Assembly: GCA_016210785.1 (NCBI GenBank) | Contig: JACQTN010000068.1 | Span: 1 to 19,770, forward strand | Origin: Armatimonadota bacterium | GTDB lineage: Bacteria; Sysuimicrobiota; Sysuimicrobiia; Sysuimicrobiales; JACQTN01 | Direction of reading: 5' to 3' | DNA length: 19,770 bases | In this document: in pieces, positions 232-19,770 of the stretch | Layout: each line of letters begins with the position of its first letter | How positions within the stretch are numbered: the stretch's first letter is position 1 | Translations under genes and position numbers: made by a program | The notes under the pieces: generated by a model | The model's input: the letters and a program-made list of their open reading frames with translations, nothing else | Told to the model about the DNA's origin: nothing | The model's database searches: none

Positions 232-1479
232 TCACGCGGCCGGCGGCTGCGGGTAGCACTTCCCGTTGGCCCACAGCCGCACGTTGGGCCCCCACAGCCC
301 GCGCACGGCCCGGAGAAACCGCTCGATCCGTTTGGGGTCCAGCTTCTTGTCCTCTTCGTGGTGCCGGAGCACCAGCTCGCCGCCGTCGCCGGGCTCCACC
401 TCGATGTGGGGTTCGCCCTTGTACAGCTTCTGGGCGATGAGCATGTCCTTGACCTGATGCAGGTCGTAGCTCTTGCTCTTCTCCTTGGGATCGTACACGA
501 ACAGGTCCAGCCGCTGGACCATCTCCTCCGTGAGCACCGCGTCCACCAGCCGGATATCGTCGTAGTCCCGGCGCACGCGCAGCACCTCGTCGAAGCCCCG
601 GGCGTCCCGGATATGCTTGAAGAGGGTGTAGCCGATGGTGTACGGGGCGGGCCGGTTGCTGAGCTGCACCGAGATGGTGGCCCACTCCCGGGTGCTGAGG
701 ATCTCCCGCAGCAGCTCCGCCTCCACGAAGGTGGCCCAGCCCTCGTTGATGATGTGGGTGCGCTGGATGATGTCGAAGTACTCGGCCTCTTCCCGGATCA
801 TGCGCAGCAGGTGGGTCTTCAGCACCAGCTCCGCGGCGTCGGCGGGCAAGCGGTCCATCACGTCCTCGGTCAAGGCCAGCTGGTCCAGCTCCGCATCGGT
901 CAGCCCCAGCGCCTCCTGGAGCCGGCGCCGGAGGCTCTCCCAGAACTTCTCCTCCAGGTAGTAGATCAGGCGCTTGTGGCGCTCGGCGGGATTGCGCTCG
1001 AAGGCATTGACGGAGGTGGCGACGGTGAGCATCTGGTTCAGGAGTTCCTCCACCTTCTCCCGCCCGTACTTCGCCTCGTAGGCACGGATGATGCGGGCGT
1101 GCAGCTCCGCCTCGTTGAGCATGTTCTTGTTGGACTTCCGGTACCAGTGGTTGTTGCGAAAGAAGTCCACGTGCCCGTAGACGTGGGCGATCACCAGCAC
1201 GTTCTGCAGGTAGGTGTTGGTGTGGCGCAGGAAGGCGTAGGACGGCGAGGTGTTCAGCACCAGCTCCAGGATGCTGAACACCTCCTTGGCCTGCTGGATA
1301 GACAGCTCCTTGTAGGCCCCGCCCCACAGCCAGTGCACGAACCGGTTGGGCAGGCCCATGCTGGCCACTTCTGCGATCTCGTCGCTGTCGGTGAGGCGGA
1401 AGAAGACCGGGTCAAAGGAGAGGCCCCGGTCCCGGGCCAGCCGCTCCAGCCTGGCGATTACCTTCTGATACTCCTGCAT
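232..1479 (-). CDS. spoVR: SpoVR family protein
   Basis: The product is 415 residues, somewhat shorter than the roughly 470-510 usual for the family. Hallmarks are an N-terminal segment with NRFVHWLWGGAYKEL (about 45-59), VIAHVYGHVDFF (96-107), a second conserved block HIINEGWATF (242-251) and APYTIGYTLFKHIRD (278-292). In Bacillus, SpoVR is needed for normal spore cortex formation; in non-spore-formers the gene travels with prkA and yhbH, and its biochemistry is unknown. The ATG at 1479 is chosen because it follows an AAGGAG, although about 17 bases away, and no better in-frame start is present. It overlaps the end of yhbH by 22 bases, so translational coupling is likely. It is the third and last gene of the operon. 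Confidence 0.93.
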   Translation of the reverse strand: MQEYQKVIARLERLARDRGLSFDPVFFRLTDSDEIAEVASMGLPNRFVHWLWGGAYKELSIQQAKEVFSILELVLNTSPSYAFLRHTNTYLQNVLVIAHVYGHVDFFRNNHWYRKSNKNMLNEAELHARIIRAYEAKYGREKVEELLNQMLTVATSVNAFERNPAERHKRLIYYLEEKFWESLRRRLQEALGLTDAELDQLALTEDVMDRLPADAAELVLKTHLLRMIREEAEYFDIIQRTHIINEGWATFVEAELLREILSTREWATISVQLSNRPAPYTIGYTLFKHIRDARGFDEVLRVRRDYDDIRLVDAVLTEEMVQRLDLFVYDPKEKSKSYDLHQVKDMLIAQKLYKGEPHIEVEPGDGGELVLRHHEEDKKLDPKRIERFLRAVRGLWGPNVRLWANGKCYPQPPAA

Positions 1480-2645
1480 GGCCGCCGCCCCGCTCGCTCC
1501 TTGAAGAAGTTGAGAAACTCCGCCATGGCGCCCTTGACCGACTCCAGATCCGTCAGGTTGGCGAAGGTGGCGCTGGGATGCCGGCGGGCCGCCTCCTGGA
1601 CGTGCTCGCTGAACCCGCCCACGCTGCGACCGCCGGGGTTCACGTGCCCGTAGCACACCAGGTCGAAGCGCTCCAGGGCCTCCTCGTACCGGCGCTTGGC
1701 CAGGTCGAAGTCGCTGCTGCTGGTCTCGCCGTCGGTGAACAGGAACAGGAACTTGTCGTACTCGGTGACGCCCTCCAGCAGCTCCATGGCCTTCTCGAAA
1801 CCGGCGGAGATGTGGGTGCCGCCACTGGACTCCACGGAGAAGAACTCGTCCCGCGACTTCTCCTCCGCCACATCCTGGAAGACCACGTACTTGCGCAGGT
1901 TGGTGGGGTAGCGCTGCTCCAGGTAGTACCAGAGGACGAAGATGGTCTTCCGCACCAGCGACAGGTATTCCCCGCGCATGGAGCCCGAGATGTCCAGGAC
2001 GTAGATCTCCACCGAGCGATGGTTCTCGAAGCTGGAGGGGTCCTCCACGAAGTACCAGGCGTCCTGCTGGATGTCCACGTCGAAGTCCAGCACGCCCCGC
2101 TCCCGCGCGTTGCGGCGGAGGGAGTGCAGCATGGTCTCCTCCAGGTTCAGGTCCGCCCGCAGGCCGATGCGGTCCAGGTCGTCCAGCTCGGCGATGTCCT
2201 CGCTCTCCACCTCGCCTTGACCCACCGGCTCGTGGAAGGCGGGGAGCTCCATCTGGCCGATGAGCACCTCCTGGGCCAGCCGCACGAACTCGTCGAAGTC
2301 CAGCTCCACGCGCAGCTCGCGGCCGTGGTGATCGCCGCCCAGGATGCCGCCCAGCATCTGCATCTCGCCGCCGGCGTCCTGGCCGCCCTTGCCGGCCCCC
2401 TTCCCGCCGCCCTGGCCGCCCTGCCCCTGGGCCAGGACGGGGACCTCCTCCCCGTACTTCAGCGTGGGCAGATCCAGCGTGGCGATCTGCGTCTTCACCC
2501 GTCCGTCGACGATCAGCTCTTTCTGCTGGATCAGATCGTTGAGGTTGTTCTTGATGTACTCACGCAGGAGATGGTCGTGCTTGGACTGGGCGATCCGCCC
2601 CCGGCGGATACGCATGCCGTCGTAGGCGCGTCTGGCCGCCGCCAT
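1458..2645 (-). CDS. yhbH: DUF444 vWA-domain protein (YhbH/YeaH)
   Basis: The product is 395 residues. The N-terminus is a basic helical segment, followed by a Gly/Gln/Lys low-complexity stretch (72-93) and a C-terminal von Willebrand A domain from about 210. The metal-ion-dependent adhesion site looks complete: DISGSM (D218, S220, S222), T277 in SSGGTHIS, and D305 in FTDGETS. The family is cytosolic and genetically linked to PrkA; it is a sporulation or stationary-phase stress protein whose partner is probably the kinase. The start ATG at 2645 follows a GGGGAG lying in the 9-base gap after the prkA stop, so the two genes are tightly coupled. The C-terminal RAGRRPCRSIRR is encoded in the overlap with spoVR and is probably not part of the fold. 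Confidence 0.94.
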   Translation of the reverse strand: MAAARRAYDGMRIRRGRIAQSKHDHLLREYIKNNLNDLIQQKELIVDGRVKTQIATLDLPTLKYGEEVPVLAQGQGGQGGGKGAGKGGQDAGGEMQMLGGILGGDHHGRELRVELDFDEFVRLAQEVLIGQMELPAFHEPVGQGEVESEDIAELDDLDRIGLRADLNLEETMLHSLRRNARERGVLDFDVDIQQDAWYFVEDPSSFENHRSVEIYVLDISGSMRGEYLSLVRKTIFVLWYYLEQRYPTNLRKYVVFQDVAEEKSRDEFFSVESSGGTHISAGFEKAMELLEGVTEYDKFLFLFTDGETSSSDFDLAKRRYEEALERFDLVCYGHVNPGGRSVGGFSEHVQEAARRHPSATFANLTDLESVKGAMAEFLNFFKERAGRRPCRSIRR

Positions 2646-2654
2646 GTCTCCCCC

Positions 2655-4376
2655 CTAGAAGCTCCGGCCGATCACCTTGAACAGCGCTCGCGCACAGGTG
2701 GGACAGTAGCCGTGCTCCTCCGTGGCGGTCTGGTACAGGATGTCGAGCACCTCCCGGCTCTCCGCGTCCAGCTCCTCGCTCTTGTCGTACAGGCGCAGGC
2801 AGTTCTTGATCTTGTTGAAGACGATCTCGTTGATGGCCGTGCGCAGGTGGTCGTTGTCGCGGTACGACATCCGGCGCAGCTCGTCCTTGCGCTCCAGCAG
2901 CACGTTCTCGAAGGCCGCCCGCCCCTGCCGGCTGAGCTGGCGCTTCTGCACCATGATGCCCTCGATCTCGTTGATCAGCTCCTCCTCCCCCTCCTGCAGA
3001 GGCTCCCCGGTCACCTTGTGCGCCGCGGCGTCCAGGTAGTTGAGGTAGTAGTTCTGGCCGTAGTCGTAGAAGCGGGCCGGCACCACCGTCTCCACGATCA
3101 TGTCCACCTTGCGGTTGATGAAGTCCACCTTGGTCTCTTCGAAGGTCTTGAGGAGCTCCTTCACGTTGAGGTCCTTGATGGACTGGTGCTCGAAGGCCCG
3201 CTCGATGGCCCGGGCGATGACCTCCAGGTCGATGCACGAAGTCGCCGCGGTGTAAGCGTAAGAGAAGGCATCCTCGAAGAAGCGCGGGCTCAACCCGCGC
3301 AGGCCGCCCGACTCTTCGCGCGTCTTGAGGGCGTAGCGGGCGGCCAGCTCGTACACGTCCTCCGGCACGTGCTTGGCTTCCCCGCGCACCCGTTGGGCCC
3401 GCGCGATCAGGTCTTTGTAGATCCGCTTCTCCCCCTCCAGGTCGGTGTTGTAGGGGAAGTCAATCTTGTGGATGCGGCCGCGCAGCGGCTCCATGATGTC
3501 CTCGGCCAGGAAGACATTGTACTCGGGGTAGTTGCTGTGGCCGATGACCACGCAGTCCGCGTGCACGGTGGGGAAGTTGGCCAGGTCAATGCGCTTGGAC
3601 TGGATCAGCTCCAGCAGCAGCGACAGCAACTGGCGCCGGCTCTTGAAGACCTCCGTCCAGTCCAGGATGCCGCGGTTGGCCCAGATGATCTTGCCCTCGA
3701 AGTCGTACGCCTGCGGATCGTAGGTGGACCCCCGCTGCTTGAGCAGGGCGAAGTTGATGTTGCCCACGAAGTTGGTGATGTCTTCGCGGCGGAGGTCGGT
3801 GGGCGTGTGCTTGGCCACCCCCACCTTGTCGCGGGCGGAGACGGAGATGCGGTGCACCGGGACGTGCGCCCAGCTCCCGTGCTGATCTATCAGGCGCTCG
3901 CAGAGGGGGCACGGGACCGCCTCCTCATGCCAGTAGAAGCCCTCGCGCTCCAGTTGATCGCGGGGGATCAGGTCGAAGGGATGCTGGTGGAAGGGACAGC
4001 CGTCCACGGCGTGCAGGACCCCGTCCCGCGTGCGGGAGTACTCCTCCAGCCTGCGCTTCAGCTTGTCCACGGTCATGGACTTGCCTGAGCCTTGCGGGCC
4101 CACCAGCAGCAGCATGCGCCGCTCCATACTCATGGCGTAGGCCTTGAAGTACGCCACGATGTCGTCGAGCTGACGGTCCATGCCGTAGATGCCCTGGAAG
4201 ACCGCCTCCTTGCCGAAGTAGTCGATCATATCGGCAATGTAGTGGTGGGTGGTCCGGGCCAGCCGGCGGTCGTCGCGGGCCGCGCTCAGGTAGTCGCCGA
4301 CGGTCTGCAGTCCCTGCATCATTGCCTCCCCACTCCCATACCCCCGGCTCGTCTCTTTCTGACCTATCGCGCTCAT
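2655..4376 (-). CDS. prkA: PrkA family serine protein kinase / AAA+ protein
   Basis: The product is 573 residues with an AAA+ core at the N-terminal half: Walker A GPQGSGKS (93-100), CVVIGHSNYPEYN (275-287) and the RGRIHKIDFPYN block (299-310). The C-terminal kinase-like region follows. Two CxxC pairs (C156/C159 and C558/C561) could bind zinc, which is inference. PrkA proteins are reported as serine kinases in several bacteria and as an ATP-dependent protease in Bacillus; they act in the cytosol in stress or sporulation. The ATG at 4376 has AGAGGTGA 8-10 bases upstream. An alternative pair of ATG codons at 4322/4319 sits directly behind GGAGTGGGGAGG and would remove about 18 residues. First gene of the prkA-yhbH-spoVR operon; see the upstream minus-strand promoter. 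Confidence 0.95.
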   Translation of the reverse strand: MSAIGQKETSRGYGSGEAMMQGLQTVGDYLSAARDDRRLARTTHHYIADMIDYFGKEAVFQGIYGMDRQLDDIVAYFKAYAMSMERRMLLLVGPQGSGKSMTVDKLKRRLEEYSRTRDGVLHAVDGCPFHQHPFDLIPRDQLEREGFYWHEEAVPCPLCERLIDQHGSWAHVPVHRISVSARDKVGVAKHTPTDLRREDITNFVGNINFALLKQRGSTYDPQAYDFEGKIIWANRGILDWTEVFKSRRQLLSLLLELIQSKRIDLANFPTVHADCVVIGHSNYPEYNVFLAEDIMEPLRGRIHKIDFPYNTDLEGEKRIYKDLIARAQRVRGEAKHVPEDVYELAARYALKTREESGGLRGLSPRFFEDAFSYAYTAATSCIDLEVIARAIERAFEHQSIKDLNVKELLKTFEETKVDFINRKVDMIVETVVPARFYDYGQNYYLNYLDAAAHKVTGEPLQEGEEELINEIEGIMVQKRQLSRQGRAAFENVLLERKDELRRMSYRDNDHLRTAINEIVFNKIKNCLRLYDKSEELDAESREVLDILYQTATEEHGYCPTCARALFKVIGRSF

Positions 4377-5048: not shown

Positions 5049-5429
5049 ATGAGCCCACGCCGTCGCATGCGCACCGCCCCATCCACCCGCACCTCCTACG
5101 TCGGGATGTACGCGCCCGAGATGTTCCGCCGCAGGCTGCGCGTCCGCCTCCTGGAGGAGGGCAAGCCCATGCGCCAGCAGCTCCAGGAGTGGATCGCCGA
5201 GTACATTAGCAGCCCGTCCCTCAAGTCCCCGCCCCGCCGGCTGCGCGGGTTCACCAAGAACGCGGTCCAGGTCGGGGTGCCCTTGCCGGAGGACCTGGCA
5301 CGCAAGTTCCGTGCCAGACTCATCATGGACGGGCTCACCGCCAGCGAGTGGGTGACCCGGCGCATCGCCGAGACCATCGGCGAGTCGGTGGAGCGGCTGG
5401 AGGAGGCAGGGCGGCGCGGCCGGCGATGA
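5049..5429 (+). CDS. Tandem ribbon-helix-helix DNA-binding protein (TraY-like architecture)
   Basis: The product is 126 residues. Two ribbon-helix-helix units sit in one chain: residues 16-53 and 73-110. They align without gaps, and by hand 13 of 38 positions are identical, including VG, PE, RxxRxRL, G and IAExI. Each has a short strand (YVGMY / QVGVP), a first helix starting after PE and a second helix ending in IAE. A basic N-terminal arm and a basic tail flank them. Such a single-chain pseudo-dimer is the design of TraY, the F-plasmid oriT-binding accessory protein; single-unit relatives are dimeric repressors. The start ATG at 5049 is preferred to 5034 because GGGAGGGA precedes it by about 5 bases. 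The stop overlaps the next ATG (ATGA). Role: autoregulator or DNA-processing accessory; undecided. Confidence 0.85.
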   Translation: MSPRRRMRTAPSTRTSYVGMYAPEMFRRRLRVRLLEEGKPMRQQLQEWIAEYISSPSLKSPPRRLRGFTKNAVQVGVPLPEDLARKFRARLIMDGLTASEWVTRRIAETIGESVERLEEAGRRGRR

Positions 5430-6409
5430 GCGGGCGCGCCGCCCTGCTGCTGGCCGCCCTGGTCGCCGCGGCCGCGGGAAGCGGAGGCGCCTCCGCGCAG
5501 CCTGCGGCGCCGTCGATCTTCACGGTCGTCGCGGCCGATCCGCCGGCGAGAACGCTGGTCAAGCTCGCGCCCGGCTTCGCGGCCGTCTTCCAGTTCGATC
5601 GCGCCATCACCCGCGTCGCGCTGGGCGACGACCGCCTGGTGGCCTTCCACGTGGACGCGGATCGGGGCGACCTGACCATGAAACCCGTGGCCTCTTCCGG
5701 GCGAACCAACATGGTCGTCTGGACGGGGCCTGGCCTCACCCTGTGGGAACTGGTCATCACGCGCGACGAGCGCACGGCGGACGTGATCCGCGTGGTCAGC
5801 GCGCCGCGGCCGGAGGATCAGGGCACGGCGCGGCCGGCGTCATCGCCGGCCGCGCCGGCATCGACACCTTCCACGCCGGGAACCGCGCCAGCCCCGGCGT
5901 CCGCCGGCGCGGGCCCGGGTGCTGGCGCCAACAGCGCGCCTGCCGCAGCAACGCAGTCTCCCGGGGCACCCCGTCTGGCGCCGGGGAGCGTACTGCAGGC
6001 GCCGGCGGGGCCTCAGGAACCTGCGCCTTCCTTCTTGCAGGCGAGCGCGCAGGGCGACGGCGTGGAGGCCATCTTTCAGGCGGTCCGGGTGCGCTGGGGC
6101 GTGGTGGTGCGATACCGTGTCCGCAACCGCAACACCGAGGGCACGCGATTCCGGATCCAGCCCGAGCGCATCCTGGTCCGCGCCCACGACCGCATCGTCC
6201 CGTATGCCCTGGTGCGGCAGCCCGCGGCCCAGGCGCCGCGGGACGTGCTCGCGCCGGGCGCGACCGAGACCGGCATGATGACCGTGCCCGGCCGGATGAC
6301 GCAACTCCAGGTGCTCTTTCCGATTTTTCCCGATGGCCCGGGGCTGCCCGTCATGCTCGAGGCCGGCTTCACGGGTCTGCACCGTCTGGTGATCCAGCCG
6401 GAACCCTGA
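5426..6409 (+). CDS. Exported VirB9 / CpaC-N-terminal-like protein
   Basis: The product is 327 residues. A signal peptide is clear (1-24, ending ASA-Q). Residues about 40-125 resemble the N-terminal beta domain shared by VirB9/TrbG proteins and the pilus-assembly N-domain of CpaC: FDRAITRVALGDDRLVAF, then LTMKPVASSGRTNMVVWT. An Ala/Pro/Gly-rich linker (about 128-200) follows, then a second beta-rich domain (about 205-327) with VVVRYRVRNRN and LAPGATETGMMTVP that I do not recognise. It lacks the usual VirB9 C-terminal domain I would expect. In T4SS, VirB9 with VirB10 forms the envelope core; Pro-rich linkers suit envelope-spanning proteins. Its start overlaps the RHH stop by 4 bases, so the two are co-translated. 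It could instead be a Tad-related accessory. Confidence 0.6.
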   Translation: MSGRAALLLAALVAAAAGSGGASAQPAAPSIFTVVAADPPARTLVKLAPGFAAVFQFDRAITRVALGDDRLVAFHVDADRGDLTMKPVASSGRTNMVVWTGPGLTLWELVITRDERTADVIRVVSAPRPEDQGTARPASSPAAPASTPSTPGTAPAPASAGAGPGAGANSAPAAATQSPGAPRLAPGSVLQAPAGPQEPAPSFLQASAQGDGVEAIFQAVRVRWGVVVRYRVRNRNTEGTRFRIQPERILVRAHDRIVPYALVRQPAAQAPRDVLAPGATETGMMTVPGRMTQLQVLFPIFPDGPGLPVMLEAGFTGLHRLVIQPEP

Positions 6410-6442
6410 TTCGCCCACCCCAGCGCCTCCACATGGCGTGAC

Positions 6443-7420
6443 GTGGACGACCTGGCGCCGCTGCTGGCCGCGCTCCCGCGGACGATCCGGGAACCGATCC
6501 TCCACCACGGGACCGCGGGGCTACGCGAAGTCGTCCTCGACCTGGGCCGTGTGCCCGAGCTGCGCTACGATCGCGGCGCCGTGTTGCTGCCGGGCGCCGT
6601 CACGCGGGAGGACATCCAGTACGTGGGCGGACGCCTCGACCGGTTCCGGGAGGACAACCGCACTGGCATCGAGCGCACGCTGCACCGCATCGCCTGCATC
6701 CGCGACCGCTACGGCACCATCATCGGGTACACGTTCCGCGTCGGGCGCCCGCTGATCGGCGCCGCGGGTGGGCTGCGCGATCTGCTGGCCGGCGGGAAGA
6801 GCATCCTGCTCCTGGGCGCGCCGGGCACCGGCAAGACCACGCTGATGCGGGACGCCGCGCGCATCCTGGCCGACGACCTGGGGCGCAAGGTCGTGATCGT
6901 CGACACCAGCAACGAGATCGGCGGCGACGGTCAGATCCCTCACCCCGCCATCGGCCGGGCGCGCCGGTTGCAGATCCCGGCCGGCGACGGCACCCGCCCC
7001 ATGCTCGAGATCCAGGCGGCGATTCTCCTGCAGGCTCTCGCCAACCACACGCCCGAAGTCATCATCGTGGACGAGTTGGGGTTCGAGGAGGACGCCCGCA
7101 TGGCCCGCACCATCGCCCGTCGCGGCGTGCAGTTGCTGGCCACCGCGCACGGGCGCCGCCTGAGCGACATCCTGCACAACCCCGATCTCGCCGGGCTGCT
7201 GGGCGGCGTCCACGTGCTGCCGCTGGGCGCCGAGGAAGCGCGCGCGGGGACGTCCCGGTTTGTCAGGGAACGGATCGGCCCCCCGGTCTTCGAAGTCGTC
7301 GTCGAGGTGATCCAGCCCGGGCTCGTCGCCGTCCACTCCCAGGTGGCGGAGTCGTGCGACCGGATCCTGCTCGGCCTTCCCCCACACCCGGAGCTGCGGG
7401 ACATTTCCATCAACCGCTGA
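6443..7420 (+). CDS. SpoIIIAA/Ycf45-type ATPase
   Basis: The product is 325 residues. The N-terminal 110 residues are an adaptor-like region ending IIGYTFRVGRPLIGAAGG. The ATPase domain has Walker A GAPGTGKT (125-132), VVIVDTSNEIGGDGQIPHPAIGRARR (150-175) and Walker B EVIIVDELG (205-213). RGVQLLATAHG (227-237) and NPDLAGLLGG complete a pattern diagnostic of the SpoIIIAA/Ycf45 group (COG3854). SpoIIIAA powers the forespore channel in Bacillus and belongs to the same superfamily as the type II/IV secretion ATPases such as VirB11. The R3H domain often found at the C-terminus of relatives is not evident. The GTG at 6443 has no clear ribosome site. Lying between VirB9-like and VirB10-like genes, it is a candidate for the VirB11 role. 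Confidence 0.88.
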   Translation: MDDLAPLLAALPRTIREPILHHGTAGLREVVLDLGRVPELRYDRGAVLLPGAVTREDIQYVGGRLDRFREDNRTGIERTLHRIACIRDRYGTIIGYTFRVGRPLIGAAGGLRDLLAGGKSILLLGAPGTGKTTLMRDAARILADDLGRKVVIVDTSNEIGGDGQIPHPAIGRARRLQIPAGDGTRPMLEIQAAILLQALANHTPEVIIVDELGFEEDARMARTIARRGVQLLATAHGRRLSDILHNPDLAGLLGGVHVLPLGAEEARAGTSRFVRERIGPPVFEVVVEVIQPGLVAVHSQVAESCDRILLGLPPHPELRDISINR

Positions 7421-7453
7421 ACCACTTCGCGCCCACCGGCCGCGGGAAACCCC

Positions 7454-7482
7454 TTGACACACGAAGAATCATATGATATTTT
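7454..7482 (+). promoter_or_regulatory. Internal promoter with spacer palindrome, leaderless start
   Basis: A perfect TTGACA (7454-7459), a 17-base spacer and TATTTT (7477-7482; 4 of 6 matches) would start transcription near 7489, only about 3 bases before the ATG at 7492. The spacer contains a perfect 10-bp palindrome, ATCATATGAT (7468-7477), a possible operator. No ribosome site precedes the ATG, consistent with a leaderless mRNA. Confidence 0.55.
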
Positions 7483-7491
7483 GAGTTCACG

Positions 7492-8922
7492 ATGTGGCAC
7501 CTCCCCGACGACCTCCGCGCTCAGATCGAAGCCGCTCTCGGCGAGCCGTGGCCCGACGATGCGTCCGCGCGGACCGCCGTGCTCACGCGCCTGCGCGTCG
7601 AGGATCCGGACCTGTACCGCGCCGTCATCGCAGAACTCTCGGGATCGCCCGTGGCGCTGACCGTGGAGGTGGAAAACCGCCGGAGGATGCGGCGGGAACG
7701 GCTGGAGGACCTGATCCTGGGATGGGCGCGCAAGCGCAGCCAGACCGGAGAGATCATCGTGCACCGGCGGCGCCTGCATGTGGTGCTGCTGCTGGCCGGG
7801 GGCGTGGCGCTGCTGGCGCTCATGGGGTTGTCGCTGGTCGCGCGCCCGCCCCAACCCACGGTCCCCGCCTCGATCGCGCCGGCGTCGGCCCCACCGCTGT
7901 CATCGGGCAGCCGCGCGCCCGGTCCTGGAAGTCCCGGCGCGGGCGCTTCGCGGCCACGGACTCCGGAGGCAACCTCAGACCGCGGGACCCCCTTGCCGCC
8001 AGACGCCGGCGCGCCCGCGTCGCCAGCCACGGCTCTCCCTCGTCCGCCGCTCCCTCCATTCCCTCCCGCGCCGATCATGACGCCGGCGCCTCGACCCTCG
8101 CGGCCCGCGGAGGCTGGCGATCCGGACATCCCCGAACTCCCCGACGCGGATGACGCGCCGCCGGGAACCGCGCAGCCCGGCGATCGGCCCGCGGCTCGAG
8201 ACGGCGCCGCGCAGGTGGTCGTCTTCAGCGCCCAGGGCACGGCGTCGTCATCCACGCCCATGCCGTTCAACACACCTGGTCGCGCTTCCGAGACCGGTCC
8301 CGTCGTCTACGAACCTGACCGTACGCTGTCCGCGTCTGCCACACAGGCCGCGCGCTCGCCGGGAGCGGATCCCCCCAACCCCACGACTCCTCCCCCCGCT
8401 CCTCCGGCGGGTGCGCGCCTGTCTGGCAGGCTGCTGACCGGGATATCGCTGGTGCCCAACCTCACCGTCCCCGTGGCGGCCGGGTCGGGCACCCCTGAGG
8501 CGGTGTGGCTGGGCGAGGCCTCGGTGGATGCCGCGGGCCTGCTGCGGGTGGTGTTCACGCGGGTGGTGGTGGACCAGAGGGAACGCCAGGTGCACGCCAT
8601 CGCCCTCGACCACGGCGCGCAGCGCCCGGGGCTGGCCGCCGCCACGGTCATGCGCACGCCCGACGCGGCCGCGGCGGCGGTGCGCGTGGGGATGGAGGCG
8701 GCGAGCGATTACCTCCGCCTGCTCTCGCAGCAGCGCCAGGTTACCATCACTAACGGCTGGGCCACCATCAACGCGGGCGAGCCTCCGCCGCTGTGGGCCG
8801 TCGCCGCCGGGCGCCTTGCCGGACTGATGGCACAGTGGCAGGCCTCCGACCGGCCGGTGCCTGTCACCGAGGTGCGCGCCGGCACGCCCATCACGATCCT
8901 CATCCTCCAGGGAGGTCCGTAG
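7492..8922 (+). CDS. VirB10/TrbI-like envelope-spanning protein
   Basis: The product is 476 residues. Layout: cytosolic helical N-terminus (1-93), one membrane segment (95-117), a long Pro/Ala/Ser-rich region (118-307) and a beta-rich C-terminal domain (308-476). That domain starts ARLSGRLLTGISLVPN and ends VTEVRAGTPITILIL. The opening 'G..L.TGI', the central AIALD and the closing 'PGT-like' strand follow the pattern of the VirB10/TrbI/DotG C-terminal domain. VirB10 connects the inner-membrane energy system to the outer core complex. The start ATG at 7492 has no ribosome site, but sits directly behind its own promoter. I would put the family call at about two in three; the arrangement next to VirB2-, VirB3- and VirB4-type genes supports it. 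Confidence 0.65.
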   Translation: MWHLPDDLRAQIEAALGEPWPDDASARTAVLTRLRVEDPDLYRAVIAELSGSPVALTVEVENRRRMRRERLEDLILGWARKRSQTGEIIVHRRRLHVVLLLAGGVALLALMGLSLVARPPQPTVPASIAPASAPPLSSGSRAPGPGSPGAGASRPRTPEATSDRGTPLPPDAGAPASPATALPRPPLPPFPPAPIMTPAPRPSRPAEAGDPDIPELPDADDAPPGTAQPGDRPAARDGAAQVVVFSAQGTASSSTPMPFNTPGRASETGPVVYEPDRTLSASATQAARSPGADPPNPTTPPPAPPAGARLSGRLLTGISLVPNLTVPVAAGSGTPEAVWLGEASVDAAGLLRVVFTRVVVDQRERQVHAIALDHGAQRPGLAAATVMRTPDAAAAAVRVGMEAASDYLRLLSQQRQVTITNGWATINAGEPPPLWAVAAGRLAGLMAQWQASDRPVPVTEVRAGTPITILILQGGP

Positions 8923-8980
8923 GTCCCGTTATTCTGTGCTAGGAGGTGCCTGGTTTGGCATTCCCCAGACAGATTCCTCG
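8920..8980 (+). repeat. Leader repeat, copy A (before the VirB2-like pilin)
   Basis: This 61-base segment, beginning at the TAG stop of the virB10-like gene, matches the minus-strand segment 19750-19690 before tadB without gaps at 48 of 61 positions by hand count. The core CTGGTTTGGCATT is identical, as is CCCAGACAG. It holds the ribosome site AGGAGG (8941-8946) and a TTG (8955). Similarity stops at the next gene's start and does not extend upstream of the TAG. Confidence 0.85.
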
Positions 8981-9284
8981 AATGCGCCGCGCCGCGACCC
9001 TTGCCGCCGTCGCCGCCGCCCTTGCCGCCGCGCCACTGCCCGCGGCGGCCCAGGCCCCCTCGTCCGGTGACCTCCTCAGCCCCCTGACCAGGCTGGCCCA
9101 GCAGGTCTCGGCGAGCCTGGTCGGGCCGCTGGGACTCGCCATCGGAATCGCCACGCTCGCGGGTGCCGCGGTGAGCGTCGCCATGGGGGGCGCCCGCTCC
9201 TTTCGATGGGTGATGTGGGTCCTGATCGGAGTGGCCATCCTGTTCGGGGCACCCACGATCATCCAGTTTATCGTGGGGAAGTGA
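8955..9284 (+). CDS. VirB2/TrbC-like pilin subunit
   Basis: The product is 109 residues from TTG 8955 (AGGAGG 8 bases upstream). It has a basic N-terminus, a signal peptide (about 10-33, ending PAAAQ), a short polar part, and two membrane segments (54-77 and 85-106) joined by GGARSFRW. This is the size and layout of VirB2/TrbC pilins, which are inserted in the inner membrane and then assembled into a pilus. The alternative start ATG 8982 gives a cleaner signal peptide. The bases 8955-8981 would then be an in-frame leader, matching the separate leader before tadB. The product is followed one base later by the VirB3-like gene. The sequence alone cannot exclude another small two-helix membrane protein; the gene order makes pilin likely. 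Confidence 0.72.
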   Translation: MAFPRQIPRMRRAATLAAVAAALAAAPLPAAAQAPSSGDLLSPLTRLAQQVSASLVGPLGLAIGIATLAGAAVSVAMGGARSFRWVMWVLIGVAILFGAPTIIQFIVGK

Positions 9285-9285
9285 C

Positions 9286-9600
9286 GTGGTCCGCCACCGC
9301 CTCTACCGGCAGGTCGACGATGCGGTCACCGTCCTCAGCCTGGACCTGGACGATCTCTTCGTGCTGACGGCCTCCTTCATCGTCATCGTCCAGGTGGTCC
9401 GCACCGCCGGCGCGTGGCTGGGGTGGGTGCGGCTGCAGATGGTCGTCGCGCTGGTTGTCACGACGGTGGGGTTCTGGGCGTGGCGGCGCCTCAAGGCCAG
9501 GCTGCCACGGTTTTACCTGCGGCATCTCCTCCAATACCTGGCGGAGGCCGACGCCTACATCGTCACGGTGGATTACGAGGCGCTACCGCTGCTGCTCTGA
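9286..9600 (+). CDS. VirB3/TraL-like inner-membrane protein
   Basis: The product is 104 residues. It has a short N-terminus (HRLYRQVDDAVTVLSLDLDDL), two membrane helices (about 23-43 and 50-66), then a basic loop RRLKARLPRF and a helix LRHLLQYLAEADAY. This resembles TraL/VirB3: small proteins that sit in the inner membrane and hold VirB4. It starts with GTG one base after the pilin stop and lies directly before virB4, the usual VirB2-VirB3-VirB4 order. Sequence similarity to known VirB3 is weak by eye, so the call rests mainly on topology and position. Confidence 0.62.
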   Translation: MVRHRLYRQVDDAVTVLSLDLDDLFVLTASFIVIVQVVRTAGAWLGWVRLQMVVALVVTTVGFWAWRRLKARLPRFYLRHLLQYLAEADAYIVTVDYEALPLLL

Positions 9601-9608
9601 GGCCGTGG

Positions 9609-9629
9609 TCTCCGCGCCACGCGCGGAGA
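9609..9629. other. 8-bp hairpin just after the VirB3-like stop
   Basis: TCTCCGCG (9609-9616) pairs exactly with CGCGGAGA (9622-9629) around a 5-base loop, 8 bases after the upstream stop codon. No U-run follows. It could protect the upstream mRNA end or lower expression of virB4 relative to the pilin. Confidence 0.4.
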
Positions 9630-9697
9630 GCGGTCCGCGGGATTGCCGGCGTCATCGGTCCCGAGGCGGCAGCGGGGAGAGGACCGCGCAGCGCGAC

Positions 9698-9711
9698 ACG
9701 GGCCGGCCCGT
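9698..9711. other. 14-bp perfect palindrome before virB4
   Basis: ACGGGCCGGCCCGT is fully self-complementary and ends 10 bases before the virB4 ribosome site GGAGG (9721-9725). It may be an operator or a chance GC palindrome. Confidence 0.3.
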
Positions 9712-9730
9712 CCGTGCCCCGGAGGTGGCG

Positions 9731-12256
9731 ATGTTCACCCACACCACGGAGGAGATGGAGTCGCTGACCTCCCGCCTCTCCTACTGGACGATCCGGGACG
9801 GCGTCCTGGTGCTGGCGGACGGGTCCTATCAGATCGGCCTGCGCGCGGCGCTGCCGGCCACGGAGGCCTGGAGCGAGGACCGCACCGCGGCGCTCAACCG
9901 GCAGCTTCAGCGGCTGCTCAACCACGCGGTCCCCGAGGGGGAGTGCCTGCGCGCCATCGTGGAGGTCCATCCCGACTGCCGCGCCCTGCTGCAGGCGCAC
10001 GCCGACGGCGCAACCACGTCTCACTCGCGGGTGCGGGCGATTCACCGCTGGCGAATCCAGGAACTATCCAGGCAGCAGGCGGCAGGGCGCATCGCGGTCT
10101 ACCACCTGTGGCTGACCCTTTCTTACCACCCGCCGGGACGGCGGCGCCGCTGGCAGCCGATTCCCGCGGCCGAGTACGCGGTGCACCTGCGGGAGATCGA
10201 GGTGATGCGCGAGGTGCTGCTGGCCAACTGCACGCGGGCCGAGATCGCCGCGTCGCCCCTGAGCGACGAGGAGTACCTGGAGGTGATCTGGCGGTACTTC
10301 AACCCGGCGCGCAAGCGCTTTCTCGATCCTCCCGCCGTGCCTCGCAGCAACCAGCGGCTGGAGATCCCCCGCCGGGTGTTGCACGCCGCCCCGTACCTGG
10401 CCATGGCCTCGGTCCGCTCGCGCGCCGCTCGCAGCGACCTGTACCGGCGGTACAACTACCTGTGGCTGGACGACCACGCGGTGAAGGCGGTCTCGCTGGA
10501 CCAGTTGCCCGACGAGGCCACCACCGAGAACCTGCTGCGCGAGCTTCTCCTCCTGCCCCATTACTTCTGGCTGGTGGTGGAGTACTGGCACGAGCCGCGC
10601 ACGGACGCCATCAAGCGCCTGGAGGTCAAGAGCCGCATGGCCTACGCCGCGCGTTTCAGCAACCCGGCCAGCGAACGCGAAGATCCCAAGAGCGCCGTCA
10701 TCTCCGCCGACCTGGAGCATCTGCTCCGCCGGCTGCACTCCAGCGACACGCGGGTCTTCCGCGCCGGCGCCGCGGTGGTGCTGCAGGAGCCGTCCCTGGA
10801 GGCGGCGCAGGAGGCGGCCCGGCACGCCATCGACGCCTTCCACCAGGTGGCCGGCGTGGAGGCGATCGACGAGTCGGTGGGGCTGCTACACCAGTTCCTG
10901 GCCCTGGCGCCCTTCTCCGGAGAGCCCACGGTCAGGCTCTTCCGTGTGCTGACCGAGAACGCGGCCGACTTCTTCCCCGCCGTCGGGCCCTGGCCCGGTT
11001 CCCCCCGGCCCACGGTGGTGTTCTGGAACCGGCTCAACGGGCTGACGGCGGTCGACCCGTTCGACCCGCGGGCGCCGGCGTGGAATGGGGTCATCGTAGG
11101 AGAAACGGGTTCCGGGAAGACCTACCTCGCCCACCAGCTTCTCTTTCAGCTGCTGGCGGTCGATCCCGAGATCATCATCGTAGACCGCGGCGGCGGGTAC
11201 GCGACCCTCGTGGCGGCGCTGGAGGGGCAGCACGTCCGTCTGGATCCCACCGGCGGCATGGCGCTGAACCCATTCGACCTTCCGGAAGGCGTGGATGAAC
11301 CTGACGACGCCAAGGTGGCCTTCCTGGTGACCATGGTCAACTTCATGGTGGCCGAGGGACCTCAGCCGCTGAGCCGGTTGGAGAAGGCGCTGCTGGAGGC
11401 CGCCGTCCGACAGACCTACTGGCGCGCGCGGGGAGAACCGGTCTTCCTGCGCGACCTGGTGCACCGGCTGCGCACCATGGAGGAGATGGGCAGCCACTCC
11501 CTCGATCTCCAGGAACGCCATCTCGCCCAACAGATCGCGACGCGCCTCCACCAGTGGACGGAAGACGCGGTCTACGCCCGTTTCCTCGACCGGCCCACCA
11601 CCATCACGCTGGACGCCGACCTTGCCTACTTCGACACGGAAGGGCTGGATCGCTATCCCGACCTCCTGCCCGTGGCAATCCTCTTGCTCACCGACCTGGT
11701 GTGGCGCCGCGTACGGCGCTCCACCGGCCGCTCCAAGATGGTGGTGATCGACGAGGCGTGGGCGCTGCTGGCCAACCCCATCGCCGGGCAGTTTCTCGAT
11801 GATCTGTACCGACGCTTCCGGCGATACGGGGCGGGCGTCCTGGCCATCAGTCAGAAGCTGGAGGACTTCGAGGGTGAGCACGCGCGCGGGGTGCTGGCCA
11901 ACGCGCAGTTTCGCTACCTGCTGCGGGTCAAGGACACGGCGCGGGCCTCCGAGCTGGCGGGGCTGAACGAGCGCGAGCGGCGGCTGCTGGAGTCGCTCAC
12001 GCAGATCCGGGGCCGCTACAGCGAGGTCCTGTGCACGGTGGACTTCTCGGAGGGACGGGAAGGCGGCGTGCTGGTCGTCCGCGGCACGAGCCTGGAGGAC
12101 TGGATCGCGACGTCCCACGAGGGGGACCGCCGGCAGCGCGACGGGGTCGCGGAGCAACGCGGAGGCTTGTGGGAGGCGGTGTGCCACCTGGCGGAGGCCG
12201 AACCGCGGGGCATGGGCGCAGGTGGACGGACCCTGTACGCGGGCCGGGCGGGATGA
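9731..12256 (+). CDS. virB4: VirB4/TraC-type conjugation ATPase
   Basis: The product is 841 residues. The N-terminal half (about 1-430) is the VirB4/TraC-type domain. The C-terminal ATPase carries Walker A GETGSGKT (457-464), the strand IIIVDRGGGY, MALNPFDLP, Walker B VVIDEAW (D674, E675) and a GVLAISQ sensor strand. This is the motor ATPase at the cytosolic face of every T4SS, and it drives pilus assembly and substrate transfer. The ATG at 9731 is chosen because GGAGG lies 5 bases upstream; the frame is open further 5', but that part is a shadow of the VirB3-like gene. There is a 130-base gap before it with a hairpin and a palindrome. It is the best-supported T4SS gene in the window. Confidence 0.95.
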   Translation: MFTHTTEEMESLTSRLSYWTIRDGVLVLADGSYQIGLRAALPATEAWSEDRTAALNRQLQRLLNHAVPEGECLRAIVEVHPDCRALLQAHADGATTSHSRVRAIHRWRIQELSRQQAAGRIAVYHLWLTLSYHPPGRRRRWQPIPAAEYAVHLREIEVMREVLLANCTRAEIAASPLSDEEYLEVIWRYFNPARKRFLDPPAVPRSNQRLEIPRRVLHAAPYLAMASVRSRAARSDLYRRYNYLWLDDHAVKAVSLDQLPDEATTENLLRELLLLPHYFWLVVEYWHEPRTDAIKRLEVKSRMAYAARFSNPASEREDPKSAVISADLEHLLRRLHSSDTRVFRAGAAVVLQEPSLEAAQEAARHAIDAFHQVAGVEAIDESVGLLHQFLALAPFSGEPTVRLFRVLTENAADFFPAVGPWPGSPRPTVVFWNRLNGLTAVDPFDPRAPAWNGVIVGETGSGKTYLAHQLLFQLLAVDPEIIIVDRGGGYATLVAALEGQHVRLDPTGGMALNPFDLPEGVDEPDDAKVAFLVTMVNFMVAEGPQPLSRLEKALLEAAVRQTYWRARGEPVFLRDLVHRLRTMEEMGSHSLDLQERHLAQQIATRLHQWTEDAVYARFLDRPTTITLDADLAYFDTEGLDRYPDLLPVAILLLTDLVWRRVRRSTGRSKMVVIDEAWALLANPIAGQFLDDLYRRFRRYGAGVLAISQKLEDFEGEHARGVLANAQFRYLLRVKDTARASELAGLNERERRLLESLTQIRGRYSEVLCTVDFSEGREGGVLVVRGTSLEDWIATSHEGDRRQRDGVAEQRGGLWEAVCHLAEAEPRGMGAGGRTLYAGRAG

Positions 12257-12280
12257 CGCGGCGGTGATGGCAGGAGGGAC

Positions 12281-12358
12281 AATGGCACGGGGTGATGCCG
12301 GTTCGGTGGTGTGCCCGCGCCCAAGGGAAGAGCGGGTCGTGCGATGCGGAGTGGTGTG
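12281..12358 (+). CDS. Small ORF, 25 codons, with ribosome site
   Basis: The ATG at 12281 follows AGGAGG (12271-12276) after 4 bases and is in the 127-base gap between virB4 and the VirB5-like gene. The peptide is Arg/Val-rich with two Cys and no lipobox, so it is not an obvious VirB7 lipoprotein. Only position and the ribosome site support it. Confidence 0.25.
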
Positions 12359-12383
12359 AGGTCCTGGTGCGTGGAGGCGTGAC

Positions 12384-13418
12384 GTGAAGCCACGGAGCGC
12401 GGGGGCGCGATGGGATGGCACGGGCGGAGTGAGAGCACGCGCGGGGCGAGCGACCGCGGGGCGAACGGGCGGCAGGAAACTCCGCGCCGCGCGAGCTCTC
12501 GCGGCGGTCGTGACGCTTCTCGTCGTCGTGGCGCCGGGGCCGCGCGCGACCGCTCAACCCACAGAGTTTCCGGATCTGGAACCTGTCCCTGGCCAGATCT
12601 CCCGGATGGGACGCCTGGTCCAGCAGGTCATGGACATGCTGGCGCGGTGGGAAACCGTGCTGACGGCACGCGGCGAGGAACTTTCGTCGGACATCCTCCG
12701 CCCGCTGATCAACATCCGGGAGTCGCGGCGCGTGCTCACCACTCTGACAACGCAACTCCGGCGCTTCAGCCGTCTGCTGGAGGCTGCGGAGCGCCGGGCC
12801 CGGCGGGGCATAGAACAGATCCCCGGGGCGGGACGTGCGGGCTCGCTCCTGACGACCTACGGGACCCGCAACCGGTTCCTGACCCGCCGGGTGGACGAGA
12901 TCGCGGCGACAGAAGCCGTGGTGGTGGGCAGTGCCGTGCACGCCACGGCCGTGGCCCGCGCCTCCACGGCGGTGGCGCGGCACGTGACCAGCGACTCCCG
13001 GCTGGCCCGGCAGGCCCAGCAGGCGCGGGCCACCGCGGCGGCCCTGCGGCGGTCCGCGACCAACCTCCCCAGCACCCGCGCCGCCATGCAGGTGATGATC
13101 GTCGGGCAGGCCTCCACGCTCCAGCACCAGGTGTTGGTTGGCCACAGGCTGGGGGAGCGCCTGGCGTACCTGGGCGAGGAGATAGCCGCGCTGTCGCACC
13201 AGGCCGCGGCCGTCGAGACCACCCTCGCCCACCAGTTGCTGGTGCAGAACCGCGACCGCATGGACGACCTGGCCGCGACGCTGGTCCAGCTCGATCTGAC
13301 CCGGGAGGTGAGCGTGCAGACGCTGAGCCGCGGGCTGCGCCCGTTCCTTGACATCGACGCGCGGGAGCAGGAACAGGACCTGCTGCAGCTCGTGCGGTGG
13401 CAGGGGCGATCGCGGTGA
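12384..13418 (+). CDS. Exported helical protein, VirB5/TrbJ-like
   Basis: The product is 344 residues. A basic extension (1-36) precedes a signal peptide (about 37-57, VVTLLVVVAPGPRATAQ). The mature part is almost entirely helical, with coiled-coil-like stretches. Around 235-270 lies AMQVMIVGQASTLQHQVLVG, similar in style to the TrbJ/VirB5 'GN..L..QL..L' region. VirB5/TrbJ proteins are periplasmic and sit at the tip or base of the conjugative pilus. The GTG at 12384 has GGAGG 6 bases upstream. The stop overlaps the next start (GTGA). Position between VirB4 and VirB6 is the classic place for VirB5. A generic periplasmic coiled-coil protein remains possible. Confidence 0.58.
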   Translation: MKPRSAGARWDGTGGVRARAGRATAGRTGGRKLRAARALAAVVTLLVVVAPGPRATAQPTEFPDLEPVPGQISRMGRLVQQVMDMLARWETVLTARGEELSSDILRPLINIRESRRVLTTLTTQLRRFSRLLEAAERRARRGIEQIPGAGRAGSLLTTYGTRNRFLTRRVDEIAATEAVVVGSAVHATAVARASTAVARHVTSDSRLARQAQQARATAAALRRSATNLPSTRAAMQVMIVGQASTLQHQVLVGHRLGERLAYLGEEIAALSHQAAAVETTLAHQLLVQNRDRMDDLAATLVQLDLTREVSVQTLSRGLRPFLDIDAREQEQDLLQLVRWQGRSR

Positions 13419-14497
13419 CGCCTTCGGTCGGCCACGATCCCCAACAACTGGTGGCGGCCCTGAAGCGGACGCTGGAACAGGCGGGCGCCGGCGCCCACGT
13501 CCACGGCGCGGCTGTCGCGGTGCTGCTGGCGCTGGGGCTGGTGGCCATCGTGCGGGCCACCACCACGGGGGAAGGACGGCCGCTGGTCGAGGCCCTCGTC
13601 CGCCTGGCCCTGGCCGGGTGGGCGGTGGAAGCCGCGCCGTCGATCAGCGCGCACGCGGCGCTGCTCTTTGCGAACCTCTCCAACGCCGGGTTCCAGGCCC
13701 TCAGCGGCGTGGTCAGCCGGCCGGCCCTGGAGAGTGCGCTACGGGAGTTCGCCGCGGCGGCGGAGAGTCTCACGGAGACGCTGGTCGGGGGCCAGGCCGC
13801 CGGCGGGCCTCTGGGTAATCTCCCGGTCACCGCCGCGCTGCCGAGGGTCGCCGAGACGATCAGCAGTCTCACCCATCGCGGCGTCGCCACCATCGGCCTC
13901 GGCATGGGCCTGCTCTTCGCGGCCTACTACGTGCTCAGTTTCTGGGCGCGGCTCGTGCTCATGGTGTCCTCGCTGCTGGCTCCGCTGTCGTTTGCCTGTC
14001 TCGCCCACCCGCGCACCGACCACCTGGGATGGCTGTGGGTGCGGACGACGCTGCGGGCGTGCCTGACCATCTTCCTGGGCAATCTGGTGCTGACCGCCGC
14101 GGTGTACCTGGGCATCCTCCGCCCGCTGGAGGAATTCAGGCAGGCCGCGCCCATGGAACGCCTGGCGCAGCTTGCGCTGCCGGTCTCCGCGGTCGCCGCG
14201 TTGGGATTTGGCATCATCGCGCTGCTCAAAGTGGAGGGGATCGCGGCGGGGTGGATCGAAGGTGGGGTGGCCTCGGTGCGCACTTCGCTGCTGGCGGTCT
14301 GGAGCGAGTCGCGCGCGGCAGGCGCGGGTGCGGGCGTATCTGCGTCCCCCAGCGTGGCTCCCCCGCTGGTCCACACCGGGCTTCCCGTACCGTGGGAGTC
14401 CGCGGGCGAGCCTCGGCCGTGGCAGGCCTCCGCACCGTGGCAGGCTCCCATGCCCGATCCGCTTTTTCCACCGCCGGGAGGCTCGCGATGGCGGTAG
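13415..14497 (+). CDS. VirB6/TrbL-like polytopic membrane protein
   Basis: The product is 360 residues from GTG 13415, which overlaps the preceding stop by 4 bases; an in-frame GTG at 13397 lacks a ribosome site. Membrane segments lie at about 31-49, 155-174, 176-196, 214-234 and 250-271, with a possible one at 58-75. The central LLAPLSFACLAHPRTDHLGWLWVR (187-210) resembles the VirB6/TrbL loop between helices. The last 60 residues are Pro/Ala-rich with WQASAPWQAP and probably extracytoplasmic or flexible. VirB6 forms part of the inner-membrane channel. Sequence identity within this family is always low, so the call rests on topology, the central motif and gene order. Confidence 0.72.
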   Translation: MTPSVGHDPQQLVAALKRTLEQAGAGAHVHGAAVAVLLALGLVAIVRATTTGEGRPLVEALVRLALAGWAVEAAPSISAHAALLFANLSNAGFQALSGVVSRPALESALREFAAAAESLTETLVGGQAAGGPLGNLPVTAALPRVAETISSLTHRGVATIGLGMGLLFAAYYVLSFWARLVLMVSSLLAPLSFACLAHPRTDHLGWLWVRTTLRACLTIFLGNLVLTAAVYLGILRPLEEFRQAAPMERLAQLALPVSAVAALGFGIIALLKVEGIAAGWIEGGVASVRTSLLAVWSESRAAGAGAGVSASPSVAPPLVHTGLPVPWESAGEPRPWQASAPWQAPMPDPLFPPPGGSRWR

Positions 14498-18504: not shown

Positions 18505-19686
18505 CTAACCCATGCGCCCCAGGAGGCGACGGATCACCTGGATCCCGAGCGCCTGGAGCCCCAGCCCGATGGCCAGGAGCATCCGGCCAGCCCGCTCTTC
18601 GATCATCGGCGCGAAGAACGCCGGAGAAAGCAACACCAGCCCGCCGCTCACCACCAGCGGAAGCGCGCCGACCATCCAGGCGCTCAACCGAACCTGGGCG
18701 GTGAGCGCCCGCAACTGTCGGCGAAACGCGACGTGTGCCCGCAGTGCGGCAATCTGGGCCTCCAGCGTCACGCTCACCTCTCCTCCGCCGCGCAGCGCCA
18801 TCCGCAGTGCCGCGGTGGTCAGCGCCACACCCTCCGACGGCGCCTCGCGCCGCATGGCGACCAGCGCCTCCTCCAGCGGCACGCCGAGCCGGACCTGCCG
18901 GCAGCAGTGATCAAACACCGGCCCCAGCGGCGGCGGAAAACGGACACCCACGCTGCCCAGCCCCTCCTGCACGGTGTGCCCGGCCCGCAGGTGTTGCACC
19001 AGCATCGACAGCGCTTCCGGCAATTGCTCATCGAAGCGCTCCATGCGGCGGCGGCGCCGCTCCCGCAGCCACCAGGGGATGAGCATCGTCGCCGCAACGA
19101 CGCCGGCCGCCCCTCCCTCTGGCCCGCGCAGCGCGGTGCCCGCGATGCCACCCCCGGCGATCGCACCGGCCCCGAGCAGCACCGCGGATCGCGCGTCGAG
19201 AAAGAGCCCGGCGTGCGCCAGGCGTCCCTCAATCGCGGCGGTCATCCGCTCGTACCAGAAATCGCCCTGATCGCGCCACGCCCCCGCTCGATCGCGCCAC
19301 CGGCCGGTCCAGTCGCGCCACGCTCTGGCCCGGCCCTGCCACATGGCCGCCAGACGGTACCGCCCGCCGGCGACATGCAGGAGCGAGTCTCCCGATGCGG
19401 GTCGCAGTCCGTCCGGCGCGCCCGGAGCGCCTGCCCATGCGTACCGGTCCCCATGGACGGCCGCGCGCGCATGATCTGGAAACTGGCGGTCCTGCCGGCC
19501 CGCGAGCCGCGAGCGGTGGTGCGGTCGTGTGCCGGTCCCGGCGTACTCCCGCACCCGCAGCTGTCGGCCGCGCTGCCGGGGCGGCCGGAGATGCGCCTCC
19601 AGTCGCTCGCGCCCTGTGCGCGAGACCGGCCACAGCAGCCACCCCGCCAGCACCGCGGCCGCGCCCAGCAGGACCGTCAGCATCAT
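18505..19686 (-). CDS. tadB: TadB-like T2SSF-domain pilus platform protein
   Basis: The product is 393 residues. There is one N-terminal membrane helix (1-20), then an unusually long basic, Trp-rich cytosolic stretch (21-150) with repeated WRD units (RAWRDWTGRWRDRAGAWRDQ, 121-140). Two membrane helices (about 166-206) follow, then the T2SSF domain (about 218-340: FDEQLPEALSMLVQHLRAGHTVQEGL, then RGGGEVSVTLEAQIAALRAH) and C-terminal helices. Two consecutive ATG codons (19686, 19683) are possible starts; neither has a good ribosome site of its own. Initiation probably depends on a 10-codon leader ORF whose TGA overlaps the first ATG. The tadA ATPase would be expected upstream, beyond the window. 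Confidence 0.92.
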   Translation of the reverse strand: MMLTVLLGAAAVLAGWLLWPVSRTGRERLEAHLRPPRQRGRQLRVREYAGTGTRPHHRSRLAGRQDRQFPDHARAAVHGDRYAWAGAPGAPDGLRPASGDSLLHVAGGRYRLAAMWQGRARAWRDWTGRWRDRAGAWRDQGDFWYERMTAAIEGRLAHAGLFLDARSAVLLGAGAIAGGGIAGTALRGPEGGAAGVVAATMLIPWWLRERRRRRMERFDEQLPEALSMLVQHLRAGHTVQEGLGSVGVRFPPPLGPVFDHCCRQVRLGVPLEEALVAMRREAPSEGVALTTAALRMALRGGGEVSVTLEAQIAALRAHVAFRRQLRALTAQVRLSAWMVGALPLVVSGGLVLLSPAFFAPMIEERAGRMLLAIGLGLQALGIQVIRRLLGRMG

Positions 19687-19715
19687 CCGCTACGAAGCTG
19701 TCTGGGAAATGCCAA
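19683..19715 (-). CDS. Leader ORF (10 codons) coupled to tadB
   Basis: TTG at 19715 has AAGGAG (19730-19725) 9 bases upstream and encodes MAFPRQLRSG; its TGA overlaps the tadB ATG (ATGA). The first six residues equal those of the TTG-initiated VirB2-like pilin (MAFPRQ). The ribosome site, TTG and spacing are conserved with that locus, which supports real use. It could also be the remnant of a duplicated gene start. Confidence 0.5.
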   Translation of the reverse strand: MAFPRQLRSG

Positions 19716-19750
19716 ACCAGGGAGCTCCTTGGGCAAAGTAGCGGGGCCTA
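19690..19750 (-). repeat. Leader repeat, copy B (before tadB)
   Basis: This is the second copy of the 61-base leader repeat (copy A 8920-8980). Reading leftward it begins with TAG (19750-19748), which may be the stop of an upstream gene in a frame open to the window edge. It contains the ribosome site and TTG of the leader ORF and ends just before the tadB start. Most of the 13 differences between the copies are transitions. Confidence 0.85.
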
Positions 19751-19770
19751 GACGCCGCTGCCATCCCACC

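Follow-up and report, generated by a model that had tools for sequence, protein, structure and literature searches.

Two gene junctions in the window share one sequence

Why should two unrelated genes, one for a type IV secretion system (T4SS) pilin and one for TadB, lie directly behind the same run of about 60 bases? The window (the whole 19,770-nucleotide stretch of DNA analysed here) comes from a bacterium whose phylum is little studied and carries two copies of this sequence, A and B, listed with the neighbouring features in Table 1. Copy A (8920-8980, plus strand) and copy B (19750-19690, minus strand) align without gaps and are identical at 48 of 61 positions, as the sequence-only reading had reported. 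The similarity is real and has sharp ends. Any other 61-mer of the window agrees with copy A at 30 positions at best, and the best from 100 first-order Markov windows reaches 33. A 23-base core is present exactly twice in the window and absent from all of 200 dinucleotide shuffles. Both copies have the TAG at their start, AGGAG, and the run TTG GCA TTY CCC AGA CAG, with a distance of 8-9 nt from AGGAG to TTG. The run opened by TTG is in frame with the pilin gene at A and ends at B in a TGA that overlaps the tadB ATG, again in agreement with the earlier description. We find that this genome has 19 close copies and more than 100 related matches, A and B being among them.

The T4SS-like operon of the window (5426-14497) encodes a TrbC/VirB2 pilin, a TraC/VirB4-like ATPase and an ATPase with a Spore_III_AA match, together with several genes without a Pfam family. 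Elsewhere in the window, SpoVR, DUF444 (YeaH-like) and PrkA genes follow each other on the minus strand (232-4376).

Table 1. Coordinates of the repeat copies and adjoining features (window positions unless a locus is named). The strands of copies A and B are those in which the sequence-only reading took them as leaders, called the leader orientation in the text.
Feature	Position	Strand	Evidence or remark
Copy A of the repeat (subfamily 1)	8919..8982	+	R1 58.4 bits, E 2.0e-15; R2 8919-8976, 35.7 bits
Copy B of the repeat (subfamily 1)	19688..19752	-	R1 75.3 bits, E 1.0e-20; R2 19688-19751, 57.8 bits
TAG, outer end of copy A	8920..8922	+	Stop codon of the upstream gene (ORF 7492-8922)
AGGAGG and TTG (8955) of the proposed leader	8941..8957	+	Ordinary repeat sequence
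Gene upstream of copy A, T4SS-like operon	7492..8922	+	ORF; no Pfam family
TrbC/VirB2-like pilin gene, ATG 8982 directly after copy A	8982..9284	+	PF04956; homologues P0001-P0004 start here
TadB-like gene (T2SSF domain), ATG 19686, directly after copy B	18505..19686	-	PF00482
Head-to-tail array	L067:2021-2219		
Head-to-tail array	L068:3410-3720		
Head-to-tail array	L069:918-1098		

The shared sequence belongs to a repeat family

The family to which A and B belong is multi-copy, mostly intergenic, divided into subfamilies, partly arrayed, and seen only in its own genome among the 43 searchable ones of the phylum. With up to 3 mismatches, the core was found in 19 copies in its own draft genome (3.73 Mb, 72% complete) and the reversed control in none. 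These 19 aligned copies show a conserved stretch of about 62 bp with abrupt ends, and the repeat unit measures approximately 55-62 bp. The sequence-only reading had named a lack of further copies as what would refute it; the genome-wide search instead found copies in abundance. A model made from sequence only (R1) gave at least 86 matches at E ≤ 1 in the own genome (150 of 656 candidates scored), and a broad model built from 71 copies (R2) gave at least 124 matches at E ≤ 0.01 (118 of 1755 candidates scored). The phylum is represented here by one order of 43 genomes including the own genome, the others belonging to other families than that of the window. One pilin homologue bears the name Armatimonadota, and the lineage would possibly fit Candidatus Sysuimicrobiota. 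R1 applied across these 43 genomes returned 54 matches in the own genome and none in the other 42; R2, with filters that lose some weak matches, likewise returned none in those 42.

Iterating on the fetched stretches revealed further related subfamilies. One of them forms head-to-tail arrays of 3.1 to 5.3 units, each 58-59 bp long, at three loci (Table 1); at L067 and at L068, a longer insert made of similar modules (GGCACGTGCC...) interrupts one unit of the array. A degenerate core pattern had no match in genome_contigs or viral_contigs, and an 81-base stretch with one copy had none in plasmids or phages, although the own record is perhaps absent from each of these collections. A VirB4-like protein found no relative in genome_contigs, nor did a pilin homologue in viral_contigs. 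A short pattern for the repeat end discriminated poorly: with up to 2 mismatches allowed, it matched 340 times and its reversed control 298 times. We found no description of this repeat in the literature.

Contigs C46, C69 and C473 of G000 (loci L082, L076 and L071) each have a copy no more than about 5 bp from one end, and the repeat may break the assembly there. The stretches L071:1-110 and L072:2550-2660 are near-identical around a copy, with few differences, and are perhaps strain variants in the draft genome.

Copies lie between genes and at stop codons

For 84 copies with scores of 25 bits or more, each unit of an array being counted separately, placement was compared with genes called on the window and 60 fetched stretches by a purpose-written, crude codon-usage caller. 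Nine of the 84 lie mostly within called genes, against 66.5 under random placement. A called stop codon falls inside 27 of them, compared with a mean of 4.7 under random placement and with a mean of 5.7 and a maximum of 15 in 200 draws of non-coding windows. A slightly wider margin yields 28 gene ends in copies, and 26 of these run opposite to the leader orientation. Of those 26 genes, 17 use the TNN of GCTNNGAAGCTG, read in the sense of the gene, as their stop codon; in the rest the stop lies further in, five of them ending in an element-coded tail LRS. The two genes of the other orientation, one upstream of copy A and one at L054, stop at the TAG that lies at the repeat's other end. The repeat is enriched at stop codons in one orientation, with its outer bases serving as the stop of the neighbouring gene.

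The E subunit of the V-ATPase ends in ...VLWEG within a copy, its Pfam model being filled (199/199) at residue 191 of 193, and its counterparts in relatives end in LW plus 1-6 residues (12 readable of 14 loci). Since the spacer between the E and C genes varies from 0 to about 95 nt in relatives, this junction is evidence of a preserved C-terminus but not of a clean empty site. In HemA, 12 residues separate the start of the FDL motif from the end of the protein; because the tails of its relatives vary from about 9 to 45 (8 readable of 11), HemA shows only that nothing was cut off. The ends of NCBIfam models are reached in WecB (364/366), HemA (415/416) and ChrA (368/368); 2 of the 10 proteins scanned have no family. 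At L064:4441-4505 and L097:2464-2527, different called genes carry a similar element-coded tail, VGNVPxAKHLEA; in both, no stop codon stands at the repeat's first triplet and the open frame continues.

An element-free junction in a relative

The junction between the upstream gene and the pilin gene exists without the element in one relative, G004, with stop and start overlapping. The G004 pilin is 70% identical to that of the window. Its upstream gene ends ...TPVTILVLQGGSRP, with the TGA overlapping the pilin ATG, whereas the upstream gene of the window ends ...TPITILILQGGP at the TAG of the element, followed by the element and then by the ATG. The G004 homologue of the upstream gene ends two residues later than that of the window. 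Of 12 loci of relatives, the script resolved the same junction at all but L173, L174, L178 and L179, and its output was read by eye. Stop and start overlap at L168 and are separated by 1 base at L170, L171, L172, L175, L176 and L177; at L169 they stand apart by an unrelated spacer of 59 nt that carries an AGGAGG of its own. For tadA and tadB, the comparison covers one relative locus (L181, in G004), where stop and start overlap or lie a few bases apart; on the contig of the window, tadA is present with its last six codons only.

The repeat is probably of mobile type

We propose, with a probability of roughly 75%, that A and B are members of a lineage-specific family of small intergenic repeats that has spread as a non-autonomous mobile element. 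Movement is inferred from the copy number, the restriction to one genome, the subfamilies, the arrays and the element-free junctions. Copies would have spread and come to rest at or next to stop codons, where the harm would be small; the machinery that spread them may have been lost, or may be encoded in what this 72%-complete genome lacks. Insertion at the pilin and tadB junctions would have separated genes that overlap in a relative, and the AGGAG...TTG leader would be a by-product of the repeat sequence with at most a secondary use. Of the three options that the sequence-only reading had offered, a mobile leader cassette comes closest.

Neither a polymorphic copy nor an exact empty site at the nucleotide level was found, the nearest relatives being from other families. 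A search for the Y1 transposase (RAYT, PF01797) gave no match at E ≤ 0.1, and no sign of a RAYT/REP pair, in the sequenced part of this 72%-complete genome; it gave matches in 8 of 14 control genomes. By eye, the aligned copy ends have no terminal inverted repeats beyond CTAG-like letters, and the flanking letters of the copies do not match as target-site duplications would.

A more specific form of the mobile-element reading is tentative and, in our estimate, rather improbable: the machinery would recognise native stop codons (the TNN in GCTNNG) and insert in one orientation, so that the length of the host gene is kept. The element carries its own stops, so an insertion near a gene end would tend to supply one, and the enrichment at stop codons does not amount to proof of targeting. 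The N columns of TNN have 1.51 and 1.17 bits; inner columns 14, 20, 31 and 33 are equally variable, so this variation is no proof that the N bases derive from the target. If stop-codon homing were true, the element would occupy a niche that is nearly harmless and is offered by every kind of gene. It would also depend on a hypothetical enzyme of this phylum whose transposition chemistry involves neither terminal repeats nor target duplications.

The seat and orientation of the copies could also result from selection, if the repeat were a functional 3'-end element acting on the mRNA of any gene terminated by it, through stability, ribosome stalling at termination or intercistronic processing. 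This is unlikely, though it would account for the single orientation shared by 26 of the 28 genes ending in a copy. It would also fit the neighbours of the 76 listed copies, among which the commonest arrangement is co-directional, with both genes antisense to the leader orientation (31 copies). In E. coli, REPs within 15 nt of stop codons are reported to affect translation (PMC12306157). However, no covarying structure was found in the repeat, 13 of the 76 copies lie between divergent genes (7 others lie between convergent genes without overlap), and the two N positions at the stop codon vary freely, as do several inner columns.

Considerably less probable is a use of the leader at A and B themselves, in which AGGAG and TTG would couple a short leader to the pilin gene (in frame) and to tadB (through TGATG), perhaps replacing the coupling lost by insertion. 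The spacing of AGGAG 8-9 nt before TTG in both copies and the TGATG at tadB are consistent with such a use; so are the upstream-gene/pilin and tadA/tadB pairs of G004, which overlap or nearly so and could be coupled. The pilin homologues argue against it, and likewise against the shared translation-initiation module of the sequence-only reading: by database start calls, all four found (one being the window's own protein) start at the residue of ATG 8982 and not at TTG 8955, and in G004 the equivalent of ATG 8982 is the first possible start codon in the open frame. Furthermore, most of the 19 copies retain the AGGAGG and TTG letters regardless of which way the neighbouring genes run, and most copies lying antisense to both neighbours likewise retain AGGAG and TTTGGCAT. 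At L054 the frame continues past the fliF start, so there is no comparable leader.

Coordinated control of two surface machines, also suggested from the two window copies, does not agree with the wider neighbourhood of subfamily 1, which consists mostly of metabolic, transport, V-ATPase and Fe-S genes. The neighbour scan covered 20 of 30 listed called genes, with three window genes scanned separately. It identified an aminotransferase, a SufB/D protein, V-ATPase subunits, Opp permeases and solute-binding proteins, as well as FliF, PrpD, a GntR regulator and a spermidine synthase. Additional copies before other envelope genes would have supported the earlier reading; the copies adjoin unrelated genes, with FliF as the one flagellar neighbour. 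A regulatory leader for envelope genes was rejected on these varied functions of the scanned neighbours.

A conserved structured RNA (a riboswitch or a protein-binding leader), the RNA motif of the earlier proposal, is very improbable and was rejected on Rfam (no match at threshold, six sub-threshold matches, none over a copy), on RNAalifold (-2.79 kcal/mol for 19 copies, 0 of 10 pairs compensated) and on shuffle-controlled covariation. Most copies do have a weak dyad symmetry (AAG..G.GT / AC.C.CTT), with 83.1% of cells paired against 31-51% with slid partners, but the pairing equals that of shuffles (83.1 versus 83.2%) and the covariation is lower (0.129 versus 0.139). Alifold z-scores for four subfamilies in two orientations ranged from -3.77 to +0.38; the structure behind the lowest value, from one subfamily on the sense strand, has 5 pairs, and that behind the next (-2.29) has 4.

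Comparison with known repeats

The REP/BIME elements are the nearest described kind. They comprise GTAG- and CGTC-tagged families of 20-40 bp palindromes (Di Nocera et al. 2013, PMC3733652), which are intergenic, lie near ORF 3' ends, often supply a TAG stop from their termini and are sometimes clustered (PMC3733652); RAYTs are associated with them (PMC2817692). Our repeat resembles REPs in high copy number, intergenic location near ORF 3' ends, terminal stop supply and clustering. Unlike REPs, it has a unit of about 61 bp that is not palindromic; its only symmetry is an imperfect dyad, which does not covary. Neither GTAG nor CGTC was seen by eye in subfamily 1, and the tandem subfamily has CGTC near one end, perhaps by chance.

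MITE-type repeats (RUP, Correia/NEMIS, ERIC and RPE) are described in PMC2229807 as small, non-autonomous and intergenic, and able to fuse to ORFs and end them. Our repeat is likewise a small, probably non-autonomous intergenic repeat that can fuse to ORFs and end them, but by eye it shows no terminal inverted repeats and no target duplication. In Borrelia, IS605-derived stem-loops follow lipoprotein genes, with remnants at or after stop codons (PMC2775950). The seat at or after stop codons is common to both; those remnants, in contrast, are described there as derived from a known IS and as forming strong stem-loops. Integron attC sites were considered as a further candidate kind because copies follow stop codons. 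The repeat behaves like REP and MITE repeats but is set apart from REPs by its size and the lack of a palindrome, and from MITEs by the lack of terminal repeats. The family is real, somewhat unusual, and of a known kind, that of small interspersed repeats.

Implications for gene ends in this genome

What looked like a tempting shared leader for two secretion machines is a repeat family that is numerous enough to shape many gene ends. Its seat at stop codons, with an orientation bias of 26 to 2, sets target choice by a mobile element against selection for a 3'-end function. Where genes of this bacterium seem to have a short in-frame leader or tail, as with the LRS at the end of five called genes, the extension can be repeat sequence and not protein.
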